A DNA stretch of 45,109 bases, taken from positions 1 to 45,109 of the IMG/VR virus record IMGVR_UViG_3300025127_007573, one strand, 5' to 3'. Shown here in pieces: positions 16,672 to 34,868 of this stretch. The notes beneath the pieces are model-generated. The model was not told where the DNA came from. It was given only the letters and a program-made list of their open reading frames with translations, and did no database searches. A program made the translations under genes and the position numbers. The DNA comes from a virus. Within the stretch, counting starts at the first letter, position 1; every line of letters begins with the position of its first letter.

Positions 16672-17459
16672 ATGAAGAAACTCTCAGAAACAGTATAAGA
16701 CAGGCAATCAGAATTGTCAAGAAAAATAGATCGCTTGCTGAGCAGAAAATAAAATCAGAAGAATCTAGACTGCGAGAAGTAATTCGCAAGCTTATTGATA
16801 TTGAAGGTAAATTAGTTTCTGAAGCTAGTACACCCGACAATGATCCGGCGCCTCATGGTAATACTGGAATTAACGTTTTAGAAGATTTATTAAAGAAAAT
16901 TGTACCAATTTTGGAAACAGATTATAAGCTTTTGACTACAAGTTTAGAACAGAGAGAGTCCTTTAGATCTCACATTGTAAACGCTGTGGTGGGTGCTTTG
17001 ACTCCTGTAGAAGCAAATAATGATGCAGAAGAAGATGGTGGTGGAGTTGAAACTGCAGGACTAGATGAAGAAATTGACATCGATGTTGTTGACGACGAAT
17101 CTAAATTTATTGATATTAATCCAGAATCACCACCTGAAGACGAGGAAGAATCTGACCCACGAGATGATTTTGGTATCGAGGGAGCTGATGTTACAGGTCG
17201 CAATATGGCATATGCTAGTTTCAAAAAAATTGAAAGCTCGATTGTTGATGCTTATGACCTACTTTCAAATTCTGAAGACCAAGAATTATTTTATGAATAT
17301 TTGATTGCAAACTTAAAATTATATTTTGATAAGTTTGAAAGCGAATTAGAAGTATCAGGTGAAGAGCCTACAAATCAAGCATATGATACTGCTAAAAAAT
17401 CACAACCTGATGGTAATGACAGTGCTGGTGGTGATGATGAAATTGATTTTAATTTATAA
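16668..17459 (+). CDS. Acidic helical phage protein, 263 aa
   Basis: Residues 1-55 are two leader-like helices (NEETLRNSIRQAIRIVKKNR and ESRLREVIRKLIDIEGKLV). Next comes a conserved-looking segment, TGINVLEDLLKKIVPILETDY to QRESFRSHIVNAV (65-110), then a strongly acidic, low-complexity region (115-175) and a helical C-terminal domain (178-225) with a disordered acidic tail. I recognise the pattern from marine myoviruses, where it follows the ligase-like gene, but no function is known to me. ATGA overlap upstream and TAATG overlap downstream indicate a tight operon. A virion or assembly role is likely by context. Confidence 0.6.
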   Translation: MNEETLRNSIRQAIRIVKKNRSLAEQKIKSEESRLREVIRKLIDIEGKLVSEASTPDNDPAPHGNTGINVLEDLLKKIVPILETDYKLLTTSLEQRESFRSHIVNAVVGALTPVEANNDAEEDGGGVETAGLDEEIDIDVVDDESKFIDINPESPPEDEEESDPRDDFGIEGADVTGRNMAYASFKKIESSIVDAYDLLSNSEDQELFYEYLIANLKLYFDKFESELEVSGEEPTNQAYDTAKKSQPDGNDSAGGDDEIDFNL

Positions 17460-17797
17460 TGAAATCTAAAACTAAACATAAAAGTGTTTTAAATAAATTA
17501 AGAGATAATAATCTTGTTAGTGATGATCTGTTAGTATTAATTAATATTATGTCATTAGAAGATATTATAGCACTAAAATTAGAACTGTCAAGTAAAATTG
17601 TAAAAAATAGATTTTATGGTTTTGACATTTGGAGAAATTCAAAATACATTGTGCAAGAAGCAATATTAAAATTTGCAATTTCTGCCACAGAGTCTAAAAA
17701 AGATGCTGCTAGATTTCTAGGTTTAAATTACCACACATTTTTAAAACTTACAAAAAAATATGAAATTCAGAAATATTTTGATAAACTGAGCTTTTAA
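17459..17797 (+). CDS. Fis-like helix-turn-helix DNA-binding protein, 112 aa
   Basis: The C-terminal half has the Fis/NtrC type helix-turn-helix: AILKFAISATESKKDAARFL then GLNYHTFLKLTKKYEI (residues 68-103), with the typical AAxxLG...YHTFxKL spacing. The N-terminal helices (20-50, LLVLINIMSLEDIIALKLEL) probably dimerise. It would act as a transcription factor on phage or host promoters; its place at the end of a virion-like operon suggests late-gene control, which is inference. TAATG overlap with the preceding gene. A hairpin lies just after the stop. Confidence 0.75.
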   Translation: MKSKTKHKSVLNKLRDNNLVSDDLLVLINIMSLEDIIALKLELSSKIVKNRFYGFDIWRNSKYIVQEAILKFAISATESKKDAARFLGLNYHTFLKLTKKYEIQKYFDKLSF

Positions 17798-17831: not shown

Positions 17832-18425
17832 ATGAAAAATATATTTTTTTTAGTTGCAATGTTATTTGGATGCGCTGCGGATTTAAAAACCAGCGACAAT
17901 CTAGGAGACCCACCTGAACCTGAAGAAATTTTAGAACCAGTTGGTATTATGGCTGATGATAATTGTCAACACGTGCAAGTCGGAGACACACCTTGTAACT
18001 TCAGACTTTTAGATCAAGCTGGGAATGTTTGGGATTTATACAGTCATAAAGGAAAAGTAATTGTTTTAGATTTATCAGCGATGTGGTGTGGGCCTTGCCA
18101 AGCCGGCGGAGCTGTGGCACAAAAATTACAAGATGATTACGAAGAACAAGGTTTTGTTTTGGTTACAGTTTTGCTTGATGGATACTATTCAGGTATAGAG
18201 CCAACAGAAGAAGAATTACAAGAGTGGGTTACGTCTCATAGTATAACAAGCTCGCCTGTTTTATTTGGCTCTAGAGAGAAAATGCTTGACAATAGTGGTA
18301 TTAATGGTTATTCTATATCTGGGTTTCCGAGTTATTTCTATATTGATAGAGAAATGATTCTATACCATGGCCATTCAGGTTTTTCGGAAGATTATTCAAG
18401 ACAAATAATAGAACAATTGTTATAA
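17832..18425 (+). CDS. Thioredoxin-fold (TlpA/ResA-like) lipoprotein, 197 aa
   Basis: The N-terminus is a lipoprotein signal: MKNIFFLVAMLFGC with lipobox Cys14. After an acidic linker comes VGDTPCNFRLLDQAGNVWDL, the AhpC/TlpA-type opening, then the active site WCGPC (Cys86, Cys89) and the cis-proline in GFPSYF (Pro166). It should be anchored on the periplasmic face of a membrane and reduce or exchange disulfides. Cys45 and Cys55 in the opening strand are extra. A phage carrying this is unusual; it could help fold secreted phage proteins or change the host envelope. AGGGG supports ATG 17832. Confidence 0.8.
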   Translation: MKNIFFLVAMLFGCAADLKTSDNLGDPPEPEEILEPVGIMADDNCQHVQVGDTPCNFRLLDQAGNVWDLYSHKGKVIVLDLSAMWCGPCQAGGAVAQKLQDDYEEQGFVLVTVLLDGYYSGIEPTEEELQEWVTSHSITSSPVLFGSREKMLDNSGINGYSISGFPSYFYIDREMILYHGHSGFSEDYSRQIIEQLL

Positions 18426-18646
18426 TGTGGAAAGTATACAAATATAATGGGCACTACATACAGGGTGATTTAATTAGTAAACACACTACTGAAAGTGCTG
18501 CCATAAAAAAAGCTAAGAAAGTAATCAATTTTTGTTTTTCTGAAAAAGTTAAAAGAAACAATGAAACATTGATTTGGCTTGATGATAAGAACTATATACC
18601 TTTAGGCGTAATCGTCAAAAAACAAAGGGGGAACAAAAATGACTAA
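18425..18646 (+). CDS. Small hypothetical phage protein, 73 aa
   Basis: The TAATG overlap with the thioredoxin gene fixes the start. The sequence MWKVYKYNGHYIQGDLISKH is followed by an Ala/Lys helix (AAIKKAKKVINF) and a final beta hairpin LIWLDDKNYIPLGVIVKK. I have seen this type in marine phages without function (memory). The basic charge suggests nucleic-acid contact. The stop codon overlaps the start of a 21-codon Cys-rich ORF by eight bases. Confidence 0.6.
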   Translation: MWKVYKYNGHYIQGDLISKHTTESAAIKKAKKVINFCFSEKVKRNNETLIWLDDKNYIPLGVIVKKQRGNKND

Positions 18647-18704
18647 CTGTGAATGCTGCGGTTGTGTACCGGCAGAATGTGAATGCACATGCTGCGAACA
18701 TTAA
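18639..18704 (+). CDS. Cys-rich micropeptide, 21 aa, metallothionein-like
   Basis: ATG 18639 follows AGGGGG (18626-18631) at good spacing and opens 21 codons. Eight residues are Cys, at 4, 6, 7, 9, 14, 16, 18 and 19, arranged as CxCCxC then CxCxCC, with one Pro between the halves. This is the layout of metallothionein-like or zinc-cluster peptides. It overlaps the preceding gene by eight bases and ends three bases before the tmRNA. A metal-binding or redox role is inferred from composition only; there are too few residues for homology. Confidence 0.55.
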   Translation: MTNCECCGCVPAECECTCCEH

Positions 18705-18706
18705 AT

Positions 18707-19038
18707 GGGGGTGATCAGGCTTCGACGTGGTTTTGAAGTTATTGAGTGCAAGCAGGTTAGATACGACCTTAACAGTTCAAATAATTTAGTTGCAAATAAC
18801 AACTTACACTTCGAACAGCGCTTAGCCGCTTAGTAGGGAGGCAGATTAGGGCCTTCTATTCAATCTAATCAAAACAACAGATAAGTTGTTAAAATCAAAA
18901 AACTCAGCGCAACAGGGAAGTAAGCGTTGTTTTATAACTTCCTAACTTGTCAGTAAGTGACATTAACTGGCTAAGCTTGTGAATGACTTAATTTTGGATT
19001 TATTGCGGACGCGGGTTCGATTCCCGCCGCCTCCACCA
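18707..19038 (+). ncRNA. ssrA: tmRNA (10Sa RNA), tag ANNNLHFEQRLAA
   Basis: The 5' end GGGGGUG (18707-18713) pairs with CGCCUCC (19028-19034), followed by an encoded ACCA, forming a 7-bp acceptor stem. GATCAGGCTTCGACGTGG matches the conserved tmRNA 5' segment. The T arm is GCGGG-TTCGATT-CCCGC near the 3' end. The resume codon is GCA 18792, and the reading frame gives ANNNLHFEQRLAA then tandem TAG TAG (18831-18836). The LAA end fits a ClpXP-type degron. It should rescue stalled ribosomes and tag the nascent peptide. The length, 332 nt, is normal. Pseudoknots were not drawn in detail. Confidence 0.93.
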
Positions 19039-19077
19039 TAAAAAGTGTGTTTTTCGATTAACACCATATTTAATATG

Positions 19078-19098
19078 CCCCCTTTTGGGGGTTTATTT
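19078..19098 (+). terminator. Rho-independent terminator after the tmRNA
   Basis: CCCCC (19078-19082), loop TTTT, GGGGG (19087-19091) and then TTTATTT form a compact GC hairpin with a T-rich tail, 40 bases after the tmRNA 3' end. It would set the end of the tmRNA precursor and separate it from the gene at 19111. Confidence 0.75.
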
Positions 19099-19110: not shown

Positions 19111-19308
19111 ATGTTTAATTGGTTTAAAAAAGAAAAAAAGGTTGAAGTTAAAGATTCAAATAATTTAGATATTGAAGATCAAATAGAAGAAGCTTTGTGG
19201 GATGTTAAGGAGCAGTTTGATTTGGAAACCGAAGAAGTTCATAGAACTGTATTAGATAAAAGACAAAAACTTGACTACATGAGAAAAACATTAAAGCGTG
19301 AAATCTAA
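19111..19308 (+). CDS. Small charged helical protein, 65 aa
   Basis: I start at ATG 19111, with AGGGA at 19101-19105; a longer reading from 19045 would run through the terminator. The protein is MFNWFKKEKKVEV followed by an uninterrupted charged helix (residues 18-65) with heptad spacing. The N-terminus is amphipathic and could touch a membrane. No family is recognised. It lies between the tmRNA terminator and another SH3-like gene, so it may start a new transcription unit. Confidence 0.55.
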   Translation: MFNWFKKEKKVEVKDSNNLDIEDQIEEALWDVKEQFDLETEEVHRTVLDKRQKLDYMRKTLKREI

Positions 19309-20315: not shown

Positions 20316-21332
20316 ATGCTTAAAAAGTTTTTACTTTTAGTGGCTGGTTTTGGCGTTAGTTGTACACAAGATTACTCTGTTATAAATTCCAAAGAGCCTG
20401 AAACAATTGTTATAACCGAAACTGTTACAGAAACAGAAACTATAGAAGTAGAAATTGAGGTACCAGTTTACATAGAAGTTGAAGTGCCTGTAAACGAAGG
20501 TGAAATTTGGATTGATTCATTTACTCAGCATATGTCAATTGATGGTATTGATATTTTGTGGGTCGTTGATCGATCTGGTTCTATGACGAGATTTAATGCA
20601 GAGTTGTTGGCAGGTGTTGAGGCTATGTTGTTGGCTTTGCCAGTTTCAGACTGGAGACTTGTGATGATTAGCGCTGATCCAGATAGAGCTGTAACAAGCA
20701 ATGAATTTCCTCTAGTACCCGGTGATGATATAGATGATGCAGCTGCCATGCTGGCAACATTGACAACAGCCCCATATGAAGAAGGTTTTAATTCTGTATA
20801 CCAATATATGAATAGCAATCCTTATTCTACTACGTGGATGCGTCCGGATGCTGGTTTATTAGTAGTATTTGTATCCGATGAAGAAGAACAAAGTGATGTT
20901 GAATACCCTACAGTACCAGATTTTATGAGTTGGTATCAATCTTTGAGAATGGGTTCAGTTTTCATGGCTAGTGTTGTTAACCAAGATCCTTCTACTACTT
21001 TGTGTAGCATGCCTCCAAGTATGATTGATGTTGGCGAAAGATATATGGAAGCAACTGGGATGCTTGGTGGCGTTGTGGTTGATATATGTGATACAGACTG
21101 GTCGCCCGGAGTAACTGATGCAACACATTCAATTGAGCCAATTGAATCTGTAAAATTAACACACAAACCAGAAATTGACACTGTAAGAGTTTTTATAAAT
21201 GGTTCTTTAAATCATGACTGGTATTATGTTGAATCAGAAAATACAGTATATTTTACTGTTTTGCCAACCGCTGGCCAGCTTGTAGAAATTGGGTATTTAT
21301 ACGTTAATGAAGATACTGGTGATTCTGGATAA
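20316..21332 (+). CDS. von Willebrand A domain lipoprotein, 338 aa
   Basis: A short signal, MLKKFLLLVAGFGVSC, ends in Cys16, an acceptable lipobox. Residues 28-60 are a Thr/Glu/Val-rich stalk with repeats (TETVTETET, EIEVPVYIEVEVPV). The vWA domain starts with ILWVVDRSGSM: Asp85, Ser87 and Ser89 form the MIDAS DxSxS. Later VVFVSDEEEQ fits the strand with the metal-near Asp. The last 60 residues form a separate beta domain (VRVFINGSLNHDWYYVESENTVYFTVLP). It should sit on the host outer membrane or periplasmic face and bind a protein through metal. I recall similar genes in uncultured marine phages. Superinfection exclusion or adhesion are guesses. Confidence 0.8.
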   Translation: MLKKFLLLVAGFGVSCTQDYSVINSKEPETIVITETVTETETIEVEIEVPVYIEVEVPVNEGEIWIDSFTQHMSIDGIDILWVVDRSGSMTRFNAELLAGVEAMLLALPVSDWRLVMISADPDRAVTSNEFPLVPGDDIDDAAAMLATLTTAPYEEGFNSVYQYMNSNPYSTTWMRPDAGLLVVFVSDEEEQSDVEYPTVPDFMSWYQSLRMGSVFMASVVNQDPSTTLCSMPPSMIDVGERYMEATGMLGGVVVDICDTDWSPGVTDATHSIEPIESVKLTHKPEIDTVRVFINGSLNHDWYYVESENTVYFTVLPTAGQLVEIGYLYVNEDTGDSG

Positions 21333-22871: not shown

Positions 22872-24206
22872 ATGGCTAAAAAAAATTACGTACTTGACAC
22901 TAGTGTTTATTTGACAGACGCTGATTCAATATACAAATTTGACAATCACGATATTTTTATTCCACTAAAAGTATTAGAAGAAGTAGACGGTCACAAAAAA
23001 AGACAGGATTCGGTTGGATCTAATGCTAGAGTTTTTATCAGAACATTAGATGAATTACGATCTAAAGGTAATCTTGAAAAAGGTGTACGGATTGATAAGG
23101 GAAAAGGTGTTCTTAAAGTTGTTTCATATTCTTCATTAAACAATGTTATATTTCCACCTGACCTAGACATAAGACACCCGGATCACACAATTATTGCTAC
23201 AGCTATGGCTGTACAATCCTCCAATGAAAATAGAAAAACTATCATGGTTTCACGTGACATAAATATGCGTGTAATTTGTGATTCTATTGGCATACAAGCA
23301 GAAGATTTTATTTCAGAAAGAGCAGTGATAAGCTCTGATGAATTATACGCAGGATTTGTTACGCAATTAGTCGATGAACAAATAATTGATAGATACTATG
23401 CTGGTGAAGAAATAACTATTTTAGAAGACGAAATTGATTGTAAATGGTCTCCAAATCAGTATATTATGTTAGTTTCTAATTCAAATGAAAAAAAATCAGC
23501 CTTAGCAAGATTTACCTCACACCATGAACCATTACATAATGTAATTCACAAAAATATACCTGATTGGAAAATTGATGCTAGAAATAAAGAGCAAGCATTT
23601 GCCATTGATTTACTTTTAAATCCAGAAATTAAAATAGTGTCTTTAATCGGCCGTGCTGGCTCTGGAAAGACTTTGATGGCTATAGCAGCGGGTCTACAGC
23701 AGACGATAGGGTTAAGAAGCGAGAACAACCATTATGACCGTTTAATAGTGTCTCGTCCTGTACAACCTTTGGGGAAAGATATTGGTTTTCTTCCGGGTAC
23801 TATGGAAGAAAAAATGCTTCCATGGTTAATGCCTATTCAAGATAATCTTAAATTTTTAATGGGTGATAGGACATCTTTAGAAATGTATATGGAAAAGGGC
23901 AAAATCGAACTTGAAGCTTTAACATACATACGCGGCCGCTCAATTGCCAATGCTTTTATAATTATTGATGAGGCACAAAACTTAACAAAACATGAAATTA
24001 AGACTATAATTACTCGTATCGGAGAAGGAACCAAAATTGTTTTAACTGGTGATATTGAACAAATTGATAATGTTTATGTAAACGAAACATCAAATGGCTT
24101 AGCCCATGCGGTTGAAAATTTCAAAGATTATCATATTTCTGGTCACGTAACATTTAGAAAAGGCGAGCGCTCTGAATTGGCGACATTAGCGTCAAAAGTA
24201 TTATAA
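22872..24206 (+). CDS. phoH: PhoH-like ATPase with N-terminal PIN domain, 444 aa
   Basis: Residues 1-150 are a PIN-like nuclease domain: YVLDTSVYL with Asp9, LKVLEEVDGHKK and VSRDINMRV with Asp129 are its acidic positions. Residues 255-444 are the PhoH domain, a helicase-type ATPase: Walker A GRAGSGKT (260-267), SRPVQPLGKDIGFLPG and Walker B IIIDEAQN. Cellular PIN-PhoH proteins unwind and cleave RNA. PhoH is common in marine phages, with an unclear role, sometimes linked to phosphate stress or RNA handling. No Pho box is visible upstream. The full length and all motifs suggest an active protein. Confidence 0.92.
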   Translation: MAKKNYVLDTSVYLTDADSIYKFDNHDIFIPLKVLEEVDGHKKRQDSVGSNARVFIRTLDELRSKGNLEKGVRIDKGKGVLKVVSYSSLNNVIFPPDLDIRHPDHTIIATAMAVQSSNENRKTIMVSRDINMRVICDSIGIQAEDFISERAVISSDELYAGFVTQLVDEQIIDRYYAGEEITILEDEIDCKWSPNQYIMLVSNSNEKKSALARFTSHHEPLHNVIHKNIPDWKIDARNKEQAFAIDLLLNPEIKIVSLIGRAGSGKTLMAIAAGLQQTIGLRSENNHYDRLIVSRPVQPLGKDIGFLPGTMEEKMLPWLMPIQDNLKFLMGDRTSLEMYMEKGKIELEALTYIRGRSIANAFIIIDEAQNLTKHEIKTIITRIGEGTKIVLTGDIEQIDNVYVNETSNGLAHAVENFKDYHISGHVTFRKGERSELATLASKVL

Positions 24207-25973: not shown

Positions 25974-27254
25974 ATGACAAAAAAGAAAATTTTGGTCTTA
26001 TCTGACCACCCGCTCTCACCCTCCGGTGTTGGCACACAAACAAAATACATGATTGAAGCACTTCTAAAAACTGGTAGGTATCAGTTTGTTTGCTTAGGAG
26101 GTGCTATTAAACACAACGATTATAATCCTATAAAAGTTCAGGGCTGGGACGAAGACTGGATAATTTATCCTGTTGATGGCTATGGAACTCATGAAATTAT
26201 ACGTTCTATTTTGCAAAAGGAACGACCAGATGCACTTTGGTTTATGACAGATCCTAGATTTTATGAGTGGCTTTGGGAAATTGAAAATGAAATTAGACCA
26301 AATGTTCCCATGATGTATTACCATGTTTGGGATAACTTTCCATATCCCCAGTTTAATGGTAGATTTTATAAATCAAATGACAAGGTTGTTTGCATTTCAA
26401 AAGTTACACATGAAATTTTACAAAATGTTGCACCAGAAGTTGAAAATTGCTACCTGCCTCATGCTGTACACTCAAATATTTTTAAGCCGGCTACAAATCA
26501 GAATGAGTTAGCAACAACAAAAGAAGTCAGAGATGCTATTTTACAAAAATCAGAAACTTACAACCCTAACAAAAAAATATTCTTTTGGAACAATAGAAAT
26601 GCTAGAAGAAAACAAAGTGGTACGGTTCTTTGGTGGTTTAAGGAATGGCTTGATAAAGTCGGTCACGACAAAGCCGTGCTCTTGATGCATACAGATGCGC
26701 GTGACCCACATGGCCAAGACTTACCACACCTTATTCAACACTTAGGTATTGAAGATGGGCAGATTTTAATTTCAACTAATAAAGTCAGCCCTGAAGAATT
26801 AGCCAATCTTTATAGAGCTAGTGACTTTACAATTAATATTTCTGATGCTGAAGGGTTTGGTTTGGCAACTTTGGAATCTTTATCCTGTGGAACACCAATT
26901 ATTGTAAATATGACAGGAGGTCTTCAAGAACAAGTAACAGACGGTAAAAACTGGTTTGGTTGGGGTATTCAACCATGTTCTAAGGCTGTAATTGGTTCTC
27001 TCCAAGTCCCTTATATTTACGAAGATAGAATTGATCAAAAAGATTTTGAAAATTGTTTAGACAAAGCTTTAAAATTAACAAAAAAACGTTACGACAATAT
27101 GGCTAAGTTGGGTCGTCAACATGTTTTAGATAACTATAATTTTGAAAATTATGAGAAACAATGGGTACAAATTATGGATGATTTTATTGAAAAAAATGGC
27201 TCTTGGGAGAACAGAAAGAACTTTCAGCCATGGTGTCTTTTGGAGGTTGCATGA
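25974..27254 (+). CDS. GT-B glycosyltransferase (GT4-like), 426 aa
   Basis: It starts LVLSDHPLSPSGVGTQTKYM, the GT-B acceptor-domain opening. KIFFWNNRNARRKQ begins the donor domain near 201. DAEGFGLATLESLSCGTPIIV holds the EX7E motif (Glu293, Glu301). It should transfer a sugar from a nucleotide donor with retention. GAGGT precedes the ATG, and the stop overlaps the next glycosyltransferase by four bases. It begins the glycan cluster. Donor and acceptor cannot be read from sequence. Confidence 0.85.
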   Translation: MTKKKILVLSDHPLSPSGVGTQTKYMIEALLKTGRYQFVCLGGAIKHNDYNPIKVQGWDEDWIIYPVDGYGTHEIIRSILQKERPDALWFMTDPRFYEWLWEIENEIRPNVPMMYYHVWDNFPYPQFNGRFYKSNDKVVCISKVTHEILQNVAPEVENCYLPHAVHSNIFKPATNQNELATTKEVRDAILQKSETYNPNKKIFFWNNRNARRKQSGTVLWWFKEWLDKVGHDKAVLLMHTDARDPHGQDLPHLIQHLGIEDGQILISTNKVSPEELANLYRASDFTINISDAEGFGLATLESLSCGTPIIVNMTGGLQEQVTDGKNWFGWGIQPCSKAVIGSLQVPYIYEDRIDQKDFENCLDKALKLTKKRYDNMAKLGRQHVLDNYNFENYEKQWVQIMDDFIEKNGSWENRKNFQPWCLLEVA

Positions 27255-28504
27255 AAAAGAAAATTATTTTAAAAGGTCCTGTTCTTACGAGAAGTGGCTA
27301 TGGTGAGCAGTCGCGATTTGCCTTGCGTGCTCTACGCAGTAGGGAGGATCTATATGATATTTACATTCAGCCACTTCAGTGGGGCAGGACATCTTGGCTT
27401 TCACAGCAAGATGAAGAGAGAGAATTTATTGATAATTGCATCAAAAAAACAATTGCATTTATACAACAAGGTGGTAAGTTTGATATGTCGTTACAAACTA
27501 CAATTCCAAATGAGTTTGAAAATATGGCAAATGTTAATATCGGCTATACAGCTGGTATTGAAACCACAGTGGTTGCTCCACAATGGTTACAAAAAATTAA
27601 CGAAGTGACTGATTCTGTGATTGTCGTTTCTAGTTTTTCAACAACAGCATTCAAAAATACTGTTTACAATGGCGAGATTAATGGTACGCCGGCAACATTA
27701 GGTCTGGAAAAGCCGATTGATTTTGTAAATTATCCAGTAAAAGATTATGACCATGTAGAGCCTTTGGATATTGATTTGGAGTATGATACAAACTTTGTTG
27801 CTGTTGCACAATGGGGCCCGCGTAAGAATATGGATGCCACTGTAAATTGGTTTATAGAAGAATTTCATGATGAAGAAGTCGGTCTTGTTGTCAAAACTAA
27901 TATGGCTAAAAATTGTGTTATGGATCGTATAGGTATGTTTGAAAAAATGAAAGAAAATGTATTACAAAAATATCCTAATAAAAAGTGTAAATTATATTTG
28001 TTACATGGAGATATGACTGAAGCTGAAATGCATTCGTTATATAAGCATCCAAAAATTAAAGCTTGTATTTCATTTGCACACGGTGAGGGTTTCGGGCTTC
28101 CTTTGTTTGAGGCAGCGTATAGCGGTCTACCAGTAGTGGCTACAGGGTGGTCTGGCCAGCTTGACTTTTTGTGTGATGAGGATGGCAATGATCATTTTTA
28201 TAATGTTGCCTTTGATATAGGCACCGTACCAGAACATGTATTGTGGGAAGGCGTAATTACTAAAGATGCAATGTGGTCTTTCCCACGTGAACAGTCTGCA
28301 AAGGAGCAGATGAGATTATGTTATAATGATGTCACTTCTGATAATTATTCAAAATCTTTAGAATATAGCAATCAATTAAAGCAAAGATTTAGCAAAGAAA
28401 AAATGTATGAAAAATTTATTCAGTTGATTGAAAAACATGCTCCAGCTGAGACGGTTTTAAATGATATGGACGAAATTGAGAAGTTATTTTCAGAGGCCTT
28501 GTAA
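27251..28504 (+). CDS. GT-B glycosyltransferase (GT4-like), 417 aa
   Basis: I use ATG 27251, behind TGGAGG at 27241-27246. ILKGPVLTRSGYGEQSRFALRAL is the N-terminal domain start. FVAVAQWGPRKNMD begins the donor domain, and HGEGFGLPLFEAAYSGLPVV is the EX7E region. Related to the previous protein in fold but with low identity, so it probably uses a different sugar or linkage. The next gene begins two bases after the stop. Confidence 0.85.
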   Translation: MKKKIILKGPVLTRSGYGEQSRFALRALRSREDLYDIYIQPLQWGRTSWLSQQDEEREFIDNCIKKTIAFIQQGGKFDMSLQTTIPNEFENMANVNIGYTAGIETTVVAPQWLQKINEVTDSVIVVSSFSTTAFKNTVYNGEINGTPATLGLEKPIDFVNYPVKDYDHVEPLDIDLEYDTNFVAVAQWGPRKNMDATVNWFIEEFHDEEVGLVVKTNMAKNCVMDRIGMFEKMKENVLQKYPNKKCKLYLLHGDMTEAEMHSLYKHPKIKACISFAHGEGFGLPLFEAAYSGLPVVATGWSGQLDFLCDEDGNDHFYNVAFDIGTVPEHVLWEGVITKDAMWSFPREQSAKEQMRLCYNDVTSDNYSKSLEYSNQLKQRFSKEKMYEKFIQLIEKHAPAETVLNDMDEIEKLFSEAL

Positions 28505-28506
28505 AA

Positions 28507-30123
28507 ATGGTTGTATTTGTTTCTGATCTTTTTGTAAAAGATTATGTTGGTGGTGGTGAACTCTCAACACAAGCGTTAATTGAGACGTGTCTAGTCCCAG
28601 TCGCTCAGGTTAATTCTCAGCATTTAACAGTAGAAATAATGAAGGCCAACAAAAATGCACATTGGGTGTTTGGAAACTTTACTCAGGTTTCTCTTGACTG
28701 TTTAGTTTATGCTATAAAAAATCTTTCATATACAGTTATTGAATATGATTATAAATTTTGTGTTTATCGTTCTCCTGAAAAACATATACTTGAAGACGGC
28801 GCATGCAATTGTGAAAAAGGTCAGCTTGCAAAAGCTGTAACTATGTTTATGCTACATTCAAAATCAGTGATGTGGATGAGCGAGAATCAAAAACAAAGGT
28901 ACATGGACAAATTTCCATTTTTAGAAAAAGCTAATAATGTTGTTTTGAGTTCTCTTTTTACTCATCAGACGCTAAATTACATAGATTCGTTAAAGAATAC
29001 ACCAAAAAACAACAAATATTTAATCATTGACTCAATGTCATGGATTAAAGGAACTACAGATTGCATTAATTATGCTAAACAAAACAATCTAGAATTTGAA
29101 TTGATTAAAAATTTAGAATATAAAAAAGTTTTGGATAAATTGGCAGCTGCAAAGGGTATTATATTTATGCCGAAAGGTGGTGATACATGTCCAAGGTTCA
29201 CCATTGAAGCAAAAATTTTAGGTTGTGATTTAATTTTAAATGATAACGTTCAGCATAAAGATGAAGATTGGTTTCAGACACGTGATAAGTGCTTAGAATA
29301 CATGTATGACAGACCTGATGTGTTTTGGTCAATAACAGAAAATTTATGGAACCTTGAAACACCTAAAACTGCTGTTCAGAATGATTCTCAAACTTTTAGA
29401 ATTATTACGCCTTTTTACAATACAGAAGGATTTATTGGCAGAACAACTTACAGCCTACAAAGACAAAACAATAAAAATTTTATGTGTTATATGATTGATG
29501 ATTGTTCCACTGATACCAGTGCTACTGTAGCATCATTATCTACTGCCGGTGATAAAAGGTTTAAATTAATTCAAAATCTAGATAAAAAATATGCGTTGCA
29601 GAATATTGCTGAAACTATAGAATCTATTGAAGATATTGATGATGAAGATGTAATTATTTTGCTTGATGGAGACGATTGGCTGCCGTCAGACAGTACACTT
29701 AGTCATCTTGAAAAGGTTTACAACTCAACCAATTGTTTAATGACATATGGAAGCTATGTTTACTCTCCGAATGGTGAAAAGGGTGTTGAACCATCTGCTT
29801 ATCCTGATGAAGTAATTAAAAACAATTCGTTTAGAACTGATAAATGGAGAGCTTCCCATCTTAGAACTTTTAAATATAAATTATGGAAGCACCTTAATCA
29901 TGATGATTTAAAAAACAACGATAAATACTACAAAGTTGCATACGACCAAGCTATAATGTTACCACTGCTAGAAATGGCAGCGGAAAGGGCAGTCTACATA
30001 CCTGAGATTATGCATGTTTATAACAGAACTAATCCTTTGAATGTTGATAAAACTAAGCAACAAGAACAGTTTGAAACAGCTCAAGAAGTAAGAGCTAAAA
30101 AACCATATCAGAGATTAGATTGA
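28507..30123 (+). CDS. Two-domain glycosyltransferase (GT-B-like plus GT-A/GT2), 538 aa
   Basis: Residues 1-285 look GT-B-like: VGGGELSTQALIE at 14-26, IDSMSWIKGTTDCINYA at 174-190 and GGDTCPRFTIEAKILGCDLIL at 224-244. Residues 297-538 are a GT2-type GT-A domain: FRIITPFYNTEGFIGRT, IDDCSTDTS (330-338) and LLDGDDWL with the metal-binding DxD (387-390). Such a fusion could add two sugars in succession. The N-terminal domain lacks a clear EX7E, so it may be inactive or use another donor. The 3' end overlaps the next gene. Confidence 0.75.
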   Translation: MVVFVSDLFVKDYVGGGELSTQALIETCLVPVAQVNSQHLTVEIMKANKNAHWVFGNFTQVSLDCLVYAIKNLSYTVIEYDYKFCVYRSPEKHILEDGACNCEKGQLAKAVTMFMLHSKSVMWMSENQKQRYMDKFPFLEKANNVVLSSLFTHQTLNYIDSLKNTPKNNKYLIIDSMSWIKGTTDCINYAKQNNLEFELIKNLEYKKVLDKLAAAKGIIFMPKGGDTCPRFTIEAKILGCDLILNDNVQHKDEDWFQTRDKCLEYMYDRPDVFWSITENLWNLETPKTAVQNDSQTFRIITPFYNTEGFIGRTTYSLQRQNNKNFMCYMIDDCSTDTSATVASLSTAGDKRFKLIQNLDKKYALQNIAETIESIEDIDDEDVIILLDGDDWLPSDSTLSHLEKVYNSTNCLMTYGSYVYSPNGEKGVEPSAYPDEVIKNNSFRTDKWRASHLRTFKYKLWKHLNHDDLKNNDKYYKVAYDQAIMLPLLEMAAERAVYIPEIMHVYNRTNPLNVDKTKQQEQFETAQEVRAKKPYQRLD

Positions 30124-31016
30124 AACTAGTTTTAGAAAATGTTAATTTAAATTCGAATTCTGGACCAAATTCATTTGGACAGAAGCTGTTTAAGTATATG
30201 CCATCTTTAGGGGTTTCGTTTAATAATAACCCCGAGCCAGATGCCTACCTTTGTTTTATAGAGTCTGGTAGGCCCACATACAATGCCCCCCTATATCAAC
30301 GGCTCGATGGCATATACTTTAACAGCGAATTTGATTACAAAACTCAAAACTCAAATATTAAAAGAACATATGAATTGGCAAAAGGCGTAATATTTCAGTC
30401 TCAATTTAATAAAGAATTAACTTTTAATTATTTTGGACCTCATAATAATTATACCATTATTCACAATGGAGCAGATTTAAATTTAATAAATTCTATTCAA
30501 AACGTAATCATTAGCAAGTATGAGAATGTTTGGTCATGTGCTTCCTCATGGCGACCTCACAAAAGATTAAGTGAAAATATCAGGTATTTTTTAGAGCATT
30601 CTGGGAAAAACGATGGCTTAATAATTGCCGGCGATGTTCAAGACAAAATTCAACATGAACGAATTCATTATGTTGGTAATTTAGGTATTGATAAACTTTT
30701 TTCTCTGTACAAAGCTTCTAAATATTTTATTCACTTAGCTTGGCTAGATCATTGCCCAAACGTTGTGGTTGATGCAATGGCTTGCGGTTGTGAAATTATT
30801 TGCTCTAGCGCTGGAGGAACCAAGGAGATTGCCGGCAGTAATGCCACTATTGTTCAAGAAGATGATTGGGATTTTAGTCCAATTAAACTTTATGAACCAC
30901 CACCTCTTAATTTTGCTAATAAAACAAGAAACAAGTGGCATGTTAATGATGATTATGATATGGATTCAGTATCAAAAAAATATTACAATTTTATAAAGGA
31001 TGACTTAGATGGATGA
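30120..31016 (+). CDS. GT-B glycosyltransferase, TTG start, 298 aa
   Basis: No in-frame ATG lies near the domain start; TTG 30120 overlaps the previous stop. LENVNLNSNSGPNSFGQKLF resembles a GT-B opening. YTIIHNGADLNLI links the domains, and WLDHCPNVVVDAMACGCEIIC and AGGTKEIAG are the donor-site segments. At 298 residues it is shorter than the usual 350-400, the N-terminal domain being compact. It overlaps the aminotransferase gene by eight bases. Confidence 0.75.
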   Translation: MKLVLENVNLNSNSGPNSFGQKLFKYMPSLGVSFNNNPEPDAYLCFIESGRPTYNAPLYQRLDGIYFNSEFDYKTQNSNIKRTYELAKGVIFQSQFNKELTFNYFGPHNNYTIIHNGADLNLINSIQNVIISKYENVWSCASSWRPHKRLSENIRYFLEHSGKNDGLIIAGDVQDKIQHERIHYVGNLGIDKLFSLYKASKYFIHLAWLDHCPNVVVDAMACGCEIICSSAGGTKEIAGSNATIVQEDDWDFSPIKLYEPPPLNFANKTRNKWHVNDDYDMDSVSKKYYNFIKDDLDG

Positions 31017-32130
31017 AATTAAGCTATTAGATTTGACACGACAATATGGAATTATAAAAGAAGAAGTAATACCTGTTGTTCTTGAGATATTAGAGTCTCA
31101 AAGATTTGTTAATGGCCCAGTAGTCGAGAGATTTGAAGAAAAATTTGCTGACTTCTGCGGAACTAAATTTGCTGTTGGATGCAGCTCTGGTACAGATGCA
31201 CTAATTATGTCCTTAATCGCTTTAAACATCGGCTGTGGGGATGAAGTAATTACTACCCCTTTTACGTTTTTTGCAACTGCTGAAGCTGTAATTAGAATGG
31301 GTGGGACACCTGTATTTGTTGATATTGATGAAAGAACTTACAATATTGATACAAGTAAAATTGAAGCAGCGATTACAGAAAAAACAAAAGCCATAATCCC
31401 AGTGCATCTTTTTGGGCAATGCTCCAACATGGATGAAATTAATCGTATTGCAAAAAAATATAATCTTAAAGTTATTGAGGATGCTGCACAAGCAGTGGCT
31501 GCTGAATGGGGTGGTCAACGCGCCGGTTCAATGGGAGATTTAGGGTGCTTTAGCTTTTTCCCAGCAAAAAATTTAGGCGCTTATGGTGATGGCGGAATGG
31601 TGACTACTAATGATGAAGAGCTTTATCAAAAGATGCTAAGAACTAGACAACATGGTATTGATATGAAAAATCCGTATCATTACGATCATATCGGTGGTAA
31701 TTTTAGGCTTGATGCCATTCAGGCTGGTATTTTAAGTATTAAATTAAGATACATTGAATGGTGGACTAGACAAAGAAACGAAAATGCGCAGGTTTACAAC
31801 TCTAGACTGAGAAAAAACCTTTCAGGATTATATGATGCGCCAACCCCACCCTATACAGATTCGAAAGCTTATCATGTTTTTAATCAATATGTGATTCGTA
31901 GCAATAAAAGAGATAATTTGAAAAGAAAATTACAAATGAATAAAATTGGTTGTAATGTATATTATCCCTACCCTATACATACACAAGGCTGTGTTGCCGC
32001 TTTGGGTTATAAAGAAGGTGATTTTCCAAATACAGAGAAGGCATGCAAGGAAGTCCTAGCACTTCCAATCTACCCAGAATTAACAGATGAAGAAATCAAT
32101 AGGGTTATTGATGTATTGGAGGGCAAATGA
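31009..32130 (+). CDS. DegT/DnrJ/EryC1 sugar aminotransferase, 373 aa
   Basis: This is a full-length PLP enzyme. The Schiff-base Lys187 is in SFFPAKNLGAYGDGG; Asp158 and Gln161 in IEDAAQAV hold the PLP ring; GCSSGTDAL binds phosphate. It converts a keto-sugar nucleotide to an amino sugar. The neighbouring Gfo/Idh oxidoreductase resembles the WbpB/WbpE or WlbA/WlbC pairs that make 3-amino sugars from UDP-HexNAc-uronate, so a 3-amino (or related) product is likely but inferred. Overlaps both neighbours. Confidence 0.9.
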   Translation: MDEIKLLDLTRQYGIIKEEVIPVVLEILESQRFVNGPVVERFEEKFADFCGTKFAVGCSSGTDALIMSLIALNIGCGDEVITTPFTFFATAEAVIRMGGTPVFVDIDERTYNIDTSKIEAAITEKTKAIIPVHLFGQCSNMDEINRIAKKYNLKVIEDAAQAVAAEWGGQRAGSMGDLGCFSFFPAKNLGAYGDGGMVTTNDEELYQKMLRTRQHGIDMKNPYHYDHIGGNFRLDAIQAGILSIKLRYIEWWTRQRNENAQVYNSRLRKNLSGLYDAPTPPYTDSKAYHVFNQYVIRSNKRDNLKRKLQMNKIGCNVYYPYPIHTQGCVAALGYKEGDFPNTEKACKEVLALPIYPELTDEEINRVIDVLEGK

Positions 32131-33038
32131 ATTGTGCTCTAATTGGTATGGGTTCAATGGGTCGAAATCACTACAATACTATTTTAAAAAATGAGTCATT
32201 AAATTTTGTCGGCGTTGTTGAACCAAATAATGATTTATCACAGGATATAAAAATTAACCACTATCGTGATGTTGATTCTTTACTTGAAAATGAACAAATT
32301 GATTTTGCTATTATTGCTACACCAACTTCAACTCATCTAGAGATCGCAAAAAAGCTTTTATGTAAAGGTATTGATCTATTAGTAGAAAAACCGATTGCTA
32401 AAAATAGTAAAGAAGCAAAAGAAATGGTAAAAATTGCACATAAAAATAATTGCAAACTCATAGTTGGACACATTGAAAGATTTAATCCAGCTATACAAGC
32501 TGTGCTGCCAAGGCTATCCGGTGAAACAATTGTACATTTTGAGGCTTCACGTTTCAGTGGTTATCCTAACAGAATTACAGATGTTGGTGTCAAACTTGAT
32601 CTTAGTATACATGACGTAGATTTGATGTCTTTATTAAGCCCTAGTAACATAAAAGAATGCTACTGCCTTGATAGTGTTAATATTGATAAAAATGATGATG
32701 ATGCTGTTTTTATAATCAAATTTTACAATGGAGCATTGGCAACAATTAGAACATCATGGCTTTTTCCTTATCGTGAAAGAAAAATAAAACTTTTAGCTAA
32801 AGATAAATATTACGTTGTTGATTTGCTTAATAAACAAGCGACAGTATATACTGAAAATGAAATAGGTAGTTTTGTAGTTGAAAGTATTATGATTGATAAG
32901 ACCGATGCCTTGTCAGATCAATTATCAGCGTTTGTAAAATATTTAAAAACCGGTAACAAAGGCTCATTATGTGATGGTGAGACGGCCGGATTAGCTTTAA
33001 GTTATGTAGAAGGAGAAAATAATGAAAGCGTGCATTAA
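32127..33038 (+). CDS. Gfo/Idh/MocA-family sugar oxidoreductase, 303 aa
   Basis: The Rossmann start is CALIGMGSMGRNHY. EKPIAKN (87-93) is the signature with catalytic Lys88, and SIHDVDL carries the His-Asp pair of the family. It oxidises or reduces a sugar nucleotide with NAD(P). Four-base overlap with the DegT gene upstream supports a two-step path to an amino sugar, as with WbpB and WbpE. At 303 residues it is slightly shorter than usual (about 320-350), the loss being in the C-terminal sheet. Confidence 0.88.
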   Translation: MNCALIGMGSMGRNHYNTILKNESLNFVGVVEPNNDLSQDIKINHYRDVDSLLENEQIDFAIIATPTSTHLEIAKKLLCKGIDLLVEKPIAKNSKEAKEMVKIAHKNNCKLIVGHIERFNPAIQAVLPRLSGETIVHFEASRFSGYPNRITDVGVKLDLSIHDVDLMSLLSPSNIKECYCLDSVNIDKNDDDAVFIIKFYNGALATIRTSWLFPYRERKIKLLAKDKYYVVDLLNKQATVYTENEIGSFVVESIMIDKTDALSDQLSAFVKYLKTGNKGSLCDGETAGLALSYVEGENNESVH

Positions 33039-33915
33039 TGTAATTTCTTCAAGAGCGGTTTGTTTAAAACCGTGTCTTGAATCAGTGTGGGAAAAATATA
33101 ACCATAAACACAATTACCCAGTATATGTGTATTATTTTGATGATATATATGATTCAGAAGAATTACAAAAAGAAATTGTTGGTGATACAGGACAGAATGT
33201 CATTTTTAGGTCAATACCTTATGAGACACCAAAGCATATAGATGAAAAAGAAATGTTTTATAATAGGAAAGATGTGTGGTATGCAGCAACACAATTTCCA
33301 ATAAGCCGAAAAGGTTATTTGCATATGTGTCATTTTATGTGTAATTTTCATGGATACCCAAACACAGATTATCACCTCTATGATTATTCATTACATATTG
33401 ATGATGAATCACAGTTTACAGAAGATGTTCCATATGATTTTTTTGAAAGAATGGAGCAAATGCCAGAAGTTGATATGGCCGCTATGAAGGTATACGATCA
33501 AAATATTAAAAAGCCACACCAAGGCAACTTTGACACAAGAATTAATCTTTGGAATTTTATTAAGGTATATCTTAAGCATTATGATATTACACCTAAATCA
33601 AAATTTATGCAAGATTTAATGAATGATCCAAACGCAGATGAAAACTTTCATTTTTACCCCTGCGCAGATTCTTACATTATAAGACTAAACATGTTTGAGT
33701 CTCCAGAATGGAAGCAATGGATTAACGCTGTAAACAAGTATGGCGGTATTTACAAATATCGCTGGGGTGATAATGATGTTAACAGTTTGTTTTATCTTAT
33801 TCATTATGCTGATGATATATATGATTTTAAAACTGTTGACGAAGGATACCACGCTCAAGGAGCACTTCGCCATTTGCAAGATTATGCCCCGGGCGTAAAA
33901 GATAATTCTAGATGA
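33022..33915 (+). CDS. GT15-like glycosyltransferase candidate, 297 aa
   Basis: YLHMCHFMCNFHGYPNTDY, DYSLHIDDESQF and YRWGDNDVNSLFYLIHY match, in order, the motifs of the fungal GT15 mannosyltransferases (MCRF, a DxD-like acidic site, and RWGDAPVHS). It should use a GDP- or UDP-sugar with inversion of fold type GT-A. There is no membrane anchor. It overlaps the preceding gene by 17 bases and the next by four. A GT15-like protein in a phage is uncommon but such copies exist in marine viruses as far as I remember. Confidence 0.6.
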   Translation: MKACINVISSRAVCLKPCLESVWEKYNHKHNYPVYVYYFDDIYDSEELQKEIVGDTGQNVIFRSIPYETPKHIDEKEMFYNRKDVWYAATQFPISRKGYLHMCHFMCNFHGYPNTDYHLYDYSLHIDDESQFTEDVPYDFFERMEQMPEVDMAAMKVYDQNIKKPHQGNFDTRINLWNFIKVYLKHYDITPKSKFMQDLMNDPNADENFHFYPCADSYIIRLNMFESPEWKQWINAVNKYGGIYKYRWGDNDVNSLFYLIHYADDIYDFKTVDEGYHAQGALRHLQDYAPGVKDNSR

Positions 33916-34868
33916 AAATACTTTACATAGATTTTGGTAATGTAGTATCTGATAATCACACTTATCAGTATTATGGAGATCTATTTAGAGAATTAAAATT
34001 GTTGTCACAAATTTATTTATTGCAAGGAGTTCCGACTAATATAAACGATATATTATCACAAATACAAGGTGGGGTAGATTGTGTTATTTTTGGTCTTGGG
34101 TATTTTGCGCAAAGCGACCAGCAGTTTTTCAACAAGATTGAAGGACTAGACACACTAGATATTCCTGTAGTTTGTATGATACACAAGCCACAGACAATGC
34201 TAGATAAAAAGCTTGAGTTTTGTAAAATTAATAATGTTAATTTGATTGTAGATTCTCAATGTACCTACAAAGACTATGAGGCAAAAACTGGCATTAAATC
34301 AATTAGGGTGCCTTTTACAGCGACCCCCAAGGTCTTCTATCCCCGTGAGGTAGAAAAGAAGTTTGACGTTGGTTTTAGTGGTGCTTTACATGGTAAAGAG
34401 AACGATGGTAGACAAAAGATTTTTGGACCCACCGCTAATCTGCGTGAAAGAGTCTATGATAAGTTAGTAGCAAGAGAGCGGAACACTTTTTGGAATTCTA
34501 GTAACACAATGGAGTACAGGATACATTCAGTTGAGGAATACGCTACCAAGATTAATGAGTGTAAAATGTGGCTTGGCACAACAGGCCCAGTGCTGGATGT
34601 TAGTCCTCGATACTTTGAGGTTATGCTTTCAAAAACTTTATTGCTTTGTAACAATATGCCTGAGCAGTACGAAGATTACTTTACAGATGGCGTGAATTGT
34701 GTTATCTTTAATAATGATTTAAGTGATTTTGATAAAAAGCTTGATTATTACTTAAGTAATGAAAGTGAAATGAGTCGAATCATTGAAACAGCATATGACA
34801 CAGCTATCAATAACTATACATGGCATCATATGGCTAAGAAGCTTATAGAACAAATTAAGGAGTTGTAA
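33912..34868 (+). CDS. CgeB-like GT-B glycosyltransferase, 318 aa
   Basis: The N-terminal domain (1-140) is a short alpha/beta domain. FDVGFSGALHGKENDGRQKI begins the donor domain, and LDVSPRYFEVMLSKTLLLCN with YFTDGVNCVIFN matches the CgeB / Glyco_trans_1_2 C-terminal region, where a Glu and an aromatic hold the donor. WHHMAKKLIEQI is the typical last helix. Start overlaps the previous stop by four bases; its stop shares one base with the next ATG. Confidence 0.75.
   Translation: MKILYIDFGNVVSDNHTYQYYGDLFRELKLLSQIYLLQGVPTNINDILSQIQGGVDCVIFGLGYFAQSDQQFFNKIEGLDTLDIPVVCMIHKPQTMLDKKLEFCKINNVNLIVDSQCTYKDYEAKTGIKSIRVPFTATPKVFYPREVEKKFDVGFSGALHGKENDGRQKIFGPTANLRERVYDKLVARERNTFWNSSNTMEYRIHSVEEYATKINECKMWLGTTGPVLDVSPRYFEVMLSKTLLLCNNMPEQYEDYFTDGVNCVIFNNDLSDFDKKLDYYLSNESEMSRIIETAYDTAINNYTWHHMAKKLIEQIKEL

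Follow-up and report, generated by a model that had tools for sequence, protein, structure and literature searches.

We found that the IMG/VR virus record analyzed here, a genome fragment of 45,109 bases (hereafter the window), carries a complete one-piece tmRNA gene (ssrA; 18707-19038, plus strand, 332 nt) that has been kept for a long time in a clade of T4-like phages. The phage very probably encodes a working one-piece tmRNA that takes part in ordinary trans-translation together with the SmpB, AlaRS, EF-Tu, RNase P, and protease of its host.

Identification of the tmRNA Gene

Both ends of the gene were placed identically by ARAGORN and by the Rfam model RF00023. The covariance search gave a full-length match (model positions 1-374) that scored 113.4 bits (E 1.1e-43), where the gathering score is 47, and ARAGORN reported a single RNA gene in the window, namely this tmRNA with the tag ANNNLHFEQRLAA followed by two stops. 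For the two-piece permuted model RF04321, the score of 38.8 bits stayed below the cut-off of 47, and the gene order is not permuted. A blastn search of INPHARED with the tmRNA returned one match only, to the 34-nt 3′ end in a single phage.

The features expected of an RF00023 member are present, all on the plus strand. The 5′ strand of the acceptor stem, GGGGGUG (18707-18713), pairs with CGCCUCC (19028-19034) and holds G3 of the G3-U70 pair. The segment 19011-19038 contains the T arm (19011-19015/19023-19027), the 3′ strand of the acceptor stem, and the encoded CCA (19036-19038), as indicated by Rfam and covariation. The tag frame (18792-18836; ARAGORN and the codon table) opens with the alanine resume codon GCA, which has UAGUU just before it, runs through the tag codons (18792-18830) to a hydrophobic ...RLAA end, and closes with tandem TAG TAG stops (18831-18836). 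The original prediction had described a tmRNA with all landmarks, including the tag, the tandem stops, and the CCA, and this observation is confirmed: 18707-19038 is a genuine tmRNA.

Secondary Structure and Covariation

Covariation was counted in an alignment of 54 thinned phage tmRNA sequences, with shuffled and slid structures as controls. In this alignment, 95.2% of the cells are paired, and two-sided changes occur at 46 pairs and in 324 cells. Shuffling gave 23.8 pairs and 76.0±8 cells, a control that relatedness inflates, and the slid structures, which relatedness leaves unaffected, gave at most 54 cells. A de novo scan for covarying helices, which used no prior structure, recovered the acceptor stem, the T stem, helix 2, one further hairpin, the crossing stems of pseudoknots (PK) 2 and 4, and the first stem of PK3. 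The alanine identity pair G3·U70 is present in all 54 aligned relatives. Some acceptor pairs seem broken in about a dozen alignment rows that are shifted by one base; the gap-free acceptor table contains compensatory stems.

The Rfam alignment of the window copy is poor in the middle of the molecule (low posterior), and the pseudoknots rest on the comparison of relatives. PK1 (18754-18778) consists of a covarying stem (18754-18758/18765-18769) and a second stem of GA(U)AC (18760-18764) with GUUC (18775-18778), which has four pairs, is 99.5% paired, and varies little. PK2 (18836-18870), recovered de novo and as helices 6 and 7, has a stem at 18836-18842/18851-18857 crossed by 18844-18850/18864-18870. 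For PK3 (18874-18896), the first stem (helix 8; 18874-18878/18885-18889) is 91.9% paired and the second (helix 9; 18880-18882/18894-18896) is weak, at only 75.9%. PK4 (18905-18943) is formed by 18905-18910/18924-18929 crossed by 18915-18921/18937-18943 (helices 10 and 11), with two-sided changes at every pair. A hairpin between PK4 and helix 2 (helix 12; 18950-18970, pairing 18950-18954/18966-18970) is 98.9% paired and has two-sided changes in 5/5 pairs. Four crossing pseudoknots are thus established by covariation among relatives, which support both stems of PK1, PK2, and PK4 and the first stem of PK3, and the tRNA-like domain is present as well. As judged from these alignments, the structure of the tmRNA is under selection in the phage clade.

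Conservation and Phage Origin

The source record and its relatives bear out the view that this tmRNA is phage-borne. A PhoH-like gene in the window (22872-24206, plus strand; PHROG 2765, E 1.2e-109) served as an anchor and led to 54 related viral contigs. Among the 45 relatives with 8 kb or more ahead of phoH, a tmRNA is present upstream of this gene in 44; ARAGORN missed those of L007, L017, and L018, and Rfam recovered all three. The relatives are T4-like myoviruses, and one of 195 kb has T4-like head, portal, sheath, and terminase genes, as well as GroEL and eight tRNAs. Its terminase has at most 47% identity to any isolate, the top match being Flavobacterium phage immuto. Because nearly all relatives carry a tmRNA, it is a long-kept viral gene and not stray host DNA.

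In a tree built by a quick method from about 330 nt and with limited bacterial sampling, the phage tmRNAs form one cluster (SH-aLRT 94), apart from those of the sampled Fidelibacterota, G027 phylum, Bacteroidota, and others. One cellular record within this cluster is L109, from a WOR-3 MAG chromosome (CP070664). Its tmRNA, beside an N run, has as a neighbor a homolog of the ORF at 17459-17797 of the window, and the genome has another tmRNA match elsewhere, so we read it as phage sequence, likely a phage fragment in a chimeric assembly presented as a chromosome.

Phages commonly integrate at ssrA, fragments of which occur in prophages (PMC9004378), as would fit a captured host fragment or a functionless relic of integration. 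Such an origin is extremely improbable, given that the gene is whole from end to end, occupies the same site upstream of phoH in nearly every relative, and has accumulated compensatory changes over dozens of divergent copies; the relatives are large T4-like myoviruses, and the phage copies group together and with no sampled host.

A phage tmRNA is of a known kind, since tmRNA genes have been reported in isolate phages (402 of 18,146, or 2.3% of genomes; PMC9004378) and, together with SmpB, in huge phages (PMC7162821). The description of such genes as rare therefore holds for isolates but fails within the clade of the window phage, where the gene is almost universal.

Tag Peptide

We collected 106 distinct phage copies with 48 different tags; this set was chosen in part by a scan for the ANNN pattern, from which the viral copies added are those among the matches listed. 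The set of phoH neighbors was not chosen by tag and therefore provides unbiased evidence for the ANNN start, which is found in every ARAGORN-called tag of that set. The form of the tag in the clade is ANNNxHF(E/D)...LAA: the ANNN start, F7, and the LAA end are kept, and the middle drifts even between close relatives. Synonymous codons are used at conserved residues (AAT/AAC at the three Asn and TTC/TTT at the Phe), and the Leu-Ala-Ala end is written with several codons, including all four for Ala. Comparison of the copies shows the tag reading frame to be under selection in the clade. The tandem TAG is common to part of the clade, mostly with tags that have a QRLAA end.

The original prediction had noted an unusual tag middle with a retained LAA end, and the middle is indeed unlike the bacterial tags sampled, which are ADYGYMAAA in Fidelibacterota (Marinimicrobia) and GENNYALAA in Bacteroidota. 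The prediction had also suggested that the tmRNA might stand in for a host copy lost during takeover, or redirect tagged proteins. The difference in the tag, together with the conservation of ANNN, F7, and LAA around a drifting middle, could suggest that the tmRNA mainly redirects tagged proteins or alters their fate, for example, if a host adaptor were avoided or a phage protease used. We consider this very unlikely. Close relatives differ greatly in the middle of the tag, which would not be expected of a fixed site for an adaptor or a phage protease, and a tag that still ends in LAA points to the usual route to host ClpXP.

After the resume Ala come three Asn codons, and many relatives have tRNA-Asn genes nearby; none is present in the window fragment. 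Second tRNA-Asn(GUU) genes were observed between the tmRNA and phoH in L012 (9480-9575), L013 (8859-8954), L055 (9118-9212), L053 (7913-8004), L029 (6960-7036), and L052 (9546-9622), beside or in place of the normal tRNA-Asn. Their bodies are leucine-like class II (long variable arm, U1-A72, and G73) or glutamine-like.

Candidate Hosts

It had been proposed that the tag could identify the host lineage. Across about 85,000 species genomes, an anchored tag pattern matched 57 stretches, of which just seven correspond to ARAGORN-called tmRNAs. Four of the seven are phage sequences (L128, L136, L138, and L109), some of them misbinned in MAGs, and the remaining three have tags that diverge after ANNN. 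The matches are mostly due to chance, and we rejected the tag as a host marker.

Two candidate host groups were also set aside. Fidelibacterota, suggested by a co-binned contig, are a weak candidate, as the tags are unlike and the phage lipoprotein lacks a cellular relative there; the Marinimicrobia MAG that contains L128 has a tmRNA of its own, with the tag ADYGYAAAA. Flavobacteria were suggested by the terminase similarity of 47%, but immuto phages have no tmRNA.

The nearest cellular tag found, ANNNKHFALAA, occurs in one genome (G236) of the G027 phylum, tags of which (ANDNVELALAA) resemble, as we presume, those of Myxococcus. Of 189 genomes from this phylum, 95 encode relatives of a VWA-like lipoprotein of the window (20316-21332), compared with two of 199 Fidelibacterota (one being the phage contig itself) and none of 198 Bacteroidota. 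We treat the G027 phylum as a lead on the host rather than a result. The homolog of this lipoprotein in L316 has the VWA-like motif WVVDRSGSM.

Upstream Gene and Its Overlap With the tmRNA

In most relatives, an ORF of 66-86 aa (…IWLD..P.GVI.KK…) lies directly before the tmRNA. Among the 63 copies that have it, 50 place its stop codon within the tmRNA, most commonly as TGA at positions 6-8. Of 103 phage copies, 52 have an ORF of at least 40 codons that enters the tmRNA, compared with none of 39 controls (0/28 Fidelibacterota and 0/11 other viral; Fisher p 5e-10, relatedness ignored). The 5′ ends of tmRNAs are known to mature by an RNase P cut at G1, so the upstream message is predicted to lack a stop codon. 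The same overlap has been described for Carsonella smpB by Hudson et al., and such overlaps are found in about 1 in 15,000 mRNAs (PMC4131195). As in Carsonella smpB-ssrA, a protein gene enters the tmRNA 5′ end in the relatives of the window phage, with a predicted nonstop mRNA; the upstream gene is, however, an unrelated 69-aa phage protein, with about 50 phage copies, and the window copy has no overlap.

In the window, the member of this phage family is a 73-aa ORF just upstream of the tmRNA (18425-18646, plus strand). Its end overlaps (ATGACTAA) the start of a 21-codon Cys-rich ORF, MTNCECCGCVPAECECTCCEH (18639-18704, plus strand), whose stop lies 2 nt before G1 of the tmRNA. The 73-aa ORF thus stops at 18646, with the Cys-rich ORF in between, and the same arrangement is found in L128, in which the close homolog of the Cys-rich ORF has synonymous changes and keeps all Cys. 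An exact-pattern search for the Cys-rich ORF in IMG/VR found no match besides the window and L128. For the 73-aa protein, the AlphaFold2 model is confident (pLDDT 92.9); the fold search gave no PDB match at E <0.1 and one close match among viral models, and no match was found among isolate phages.

The frequency of the overlap in phage copies and its absence from the controls raise the possibility that the RNase P cut strips the upstream stop, such that the small protein would be made from a nonstop message, itself be tagged, and have its level tied to tmRNA activity. The same logic has been proposed for Carsonella smpB-ssrA and is known for arfA (PMC4131195, PMC3985003). We regard this as unlikely. 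On the tree, at least 25 changes in the stop position and at least nine in the overlap state were counted, so drift or compaction of the genome explains the overlap as well as design does, and we rejected the overlap as a strictly conserved design. It is similarly doubtful that tmRNA maturation in the clade deliberately makes a built-in nonstop substrate, as with arfA in E. coli; the window would then be a derived form in which the inserted Cys-rich micro-ORF broke the link.

Other sequences were observed at this position. In L026, L048, L207, and L209, which lack the small ORF, the sequence immediately preceding the tmRNA (CUAGCGAGUGGGGAGCAAAAGAACCAC...) is conserved and seems to be structured; when checked in L026, it matched no Rfam family besides tmRNA. 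In another group of phage tmRNAs (L138, L165, L184, L236, L243, and L258), the upstream small protein is LESLELDVLKxANGNxSAGVRARRGLRLLK, which we take to resemble the bacterial histone H1-like Hc1. Two genes before the tmRNA, the window encodes an AhpC/TSA-thioredoxin-like protein (17832-18425) that seems to carry a lipoprotein signal (MKKLYFIMALMFGCA in L128).

Terminator and Downstream Flank

The gene had been predicted to have its own terminator. This applies to the window copy, in which a terminator-like hairpin with a T-rich tail follows the tmRNA (19077-19092, plus strand; CCCCCTTTTGGGGG and TTTATTTAT, two overlapping sites compared with 0.4 expected), and the hairpin is kept in L128. 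As a clade feature the terminator does not stand, because such a hairpin occurs within 110 nt in only 3 of 104 phage relatives. Promoter-like sites around the tmRNA in the window are at background level only, with no clear promoter before the gene, and the adjacent sequence yielded no riboswitch. The start codon of the next gene typically lies at most 40 nt past the CCA (83 of 100 copies), which places the tmRNA inside a run of genes on the same strand. Downstream in the window is a 65-aa ORF (MFNWFKKEKK...; 19111-19308, plus strand), a homolog of which adjoins the tmRNA in L128. Farther along the window (25974-34868), genes for glycosyltransferase, aminotransferase, and GFO/IDH/MocA oxidoreductase follow one another and make up a phage-borne cluster of the surface-sugar type.

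Proposed Function and Comparison With Known Systems

A search of 23 related records, which are possibly fragments, turned up no SmpB, while a control search found it in 10 named genomes; the tmRNA therefore most likely works with host SmpB. For its processing, charging, use of SmpB, proteolysis, and benefit, we infer the following from known tmRNA biology. The tmRNA would be transcribed during infection within the same-strand gene run, host RNase P would cut its 5′ end, and host AlaRS would charge it with alanine through the G3-U70 pair. Host SmpB and EF-Tu would load it into ribosomes stuck on broken mRNAs, where it would add ANNNLHFEQRLAA, and the LAA end would direct the product to a ClpXP-type host protease. 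In this way, free ribosomes may stay available to the phage throughout mRNA degradation, perhaps along with recycled amino acids.

Compared with bacterial one-piece tmRNAs (RF00023), the window copy has the same tRNA-like domain with G3-U70, T arm, and CCA, the same UAGUU-GCA resume site, a tag ending in LAA, and four pseudoknots in the usual order. It differs in being phage-encoded and shorter than typical (332 nt), in its own tree cluster, and in the clade form of the tag. The mycobacteriophages Bxz1 and Wildcat and Bacillus phage G (PMC4131195) are likewise lytic-type phages with a complete phage-encoded tmRNA; the window phage belongs to another lineage with another tag, and its tmRNA is found at one conserved place across a marine T4-like clade. 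The methylophage Melnitz (PMC9004378) is also a marine myovirus with its own tmRNA, but that tmRNA is of the two-piece, circularly permuted type and comes with a glutamine riboswitch, whereas the window tmRNA is one-piece, with no such neighbor found.

The recurring overlap with the upstream gene offers a natural set of about 50 cases for testing whether tmRNA processing creates its own nonstop substrate. With a tmRNA that is near-universal and structurally selected in this uncultured marine T4-like clade, ribosome rescue appears to be part of the normal equipment of these phages.
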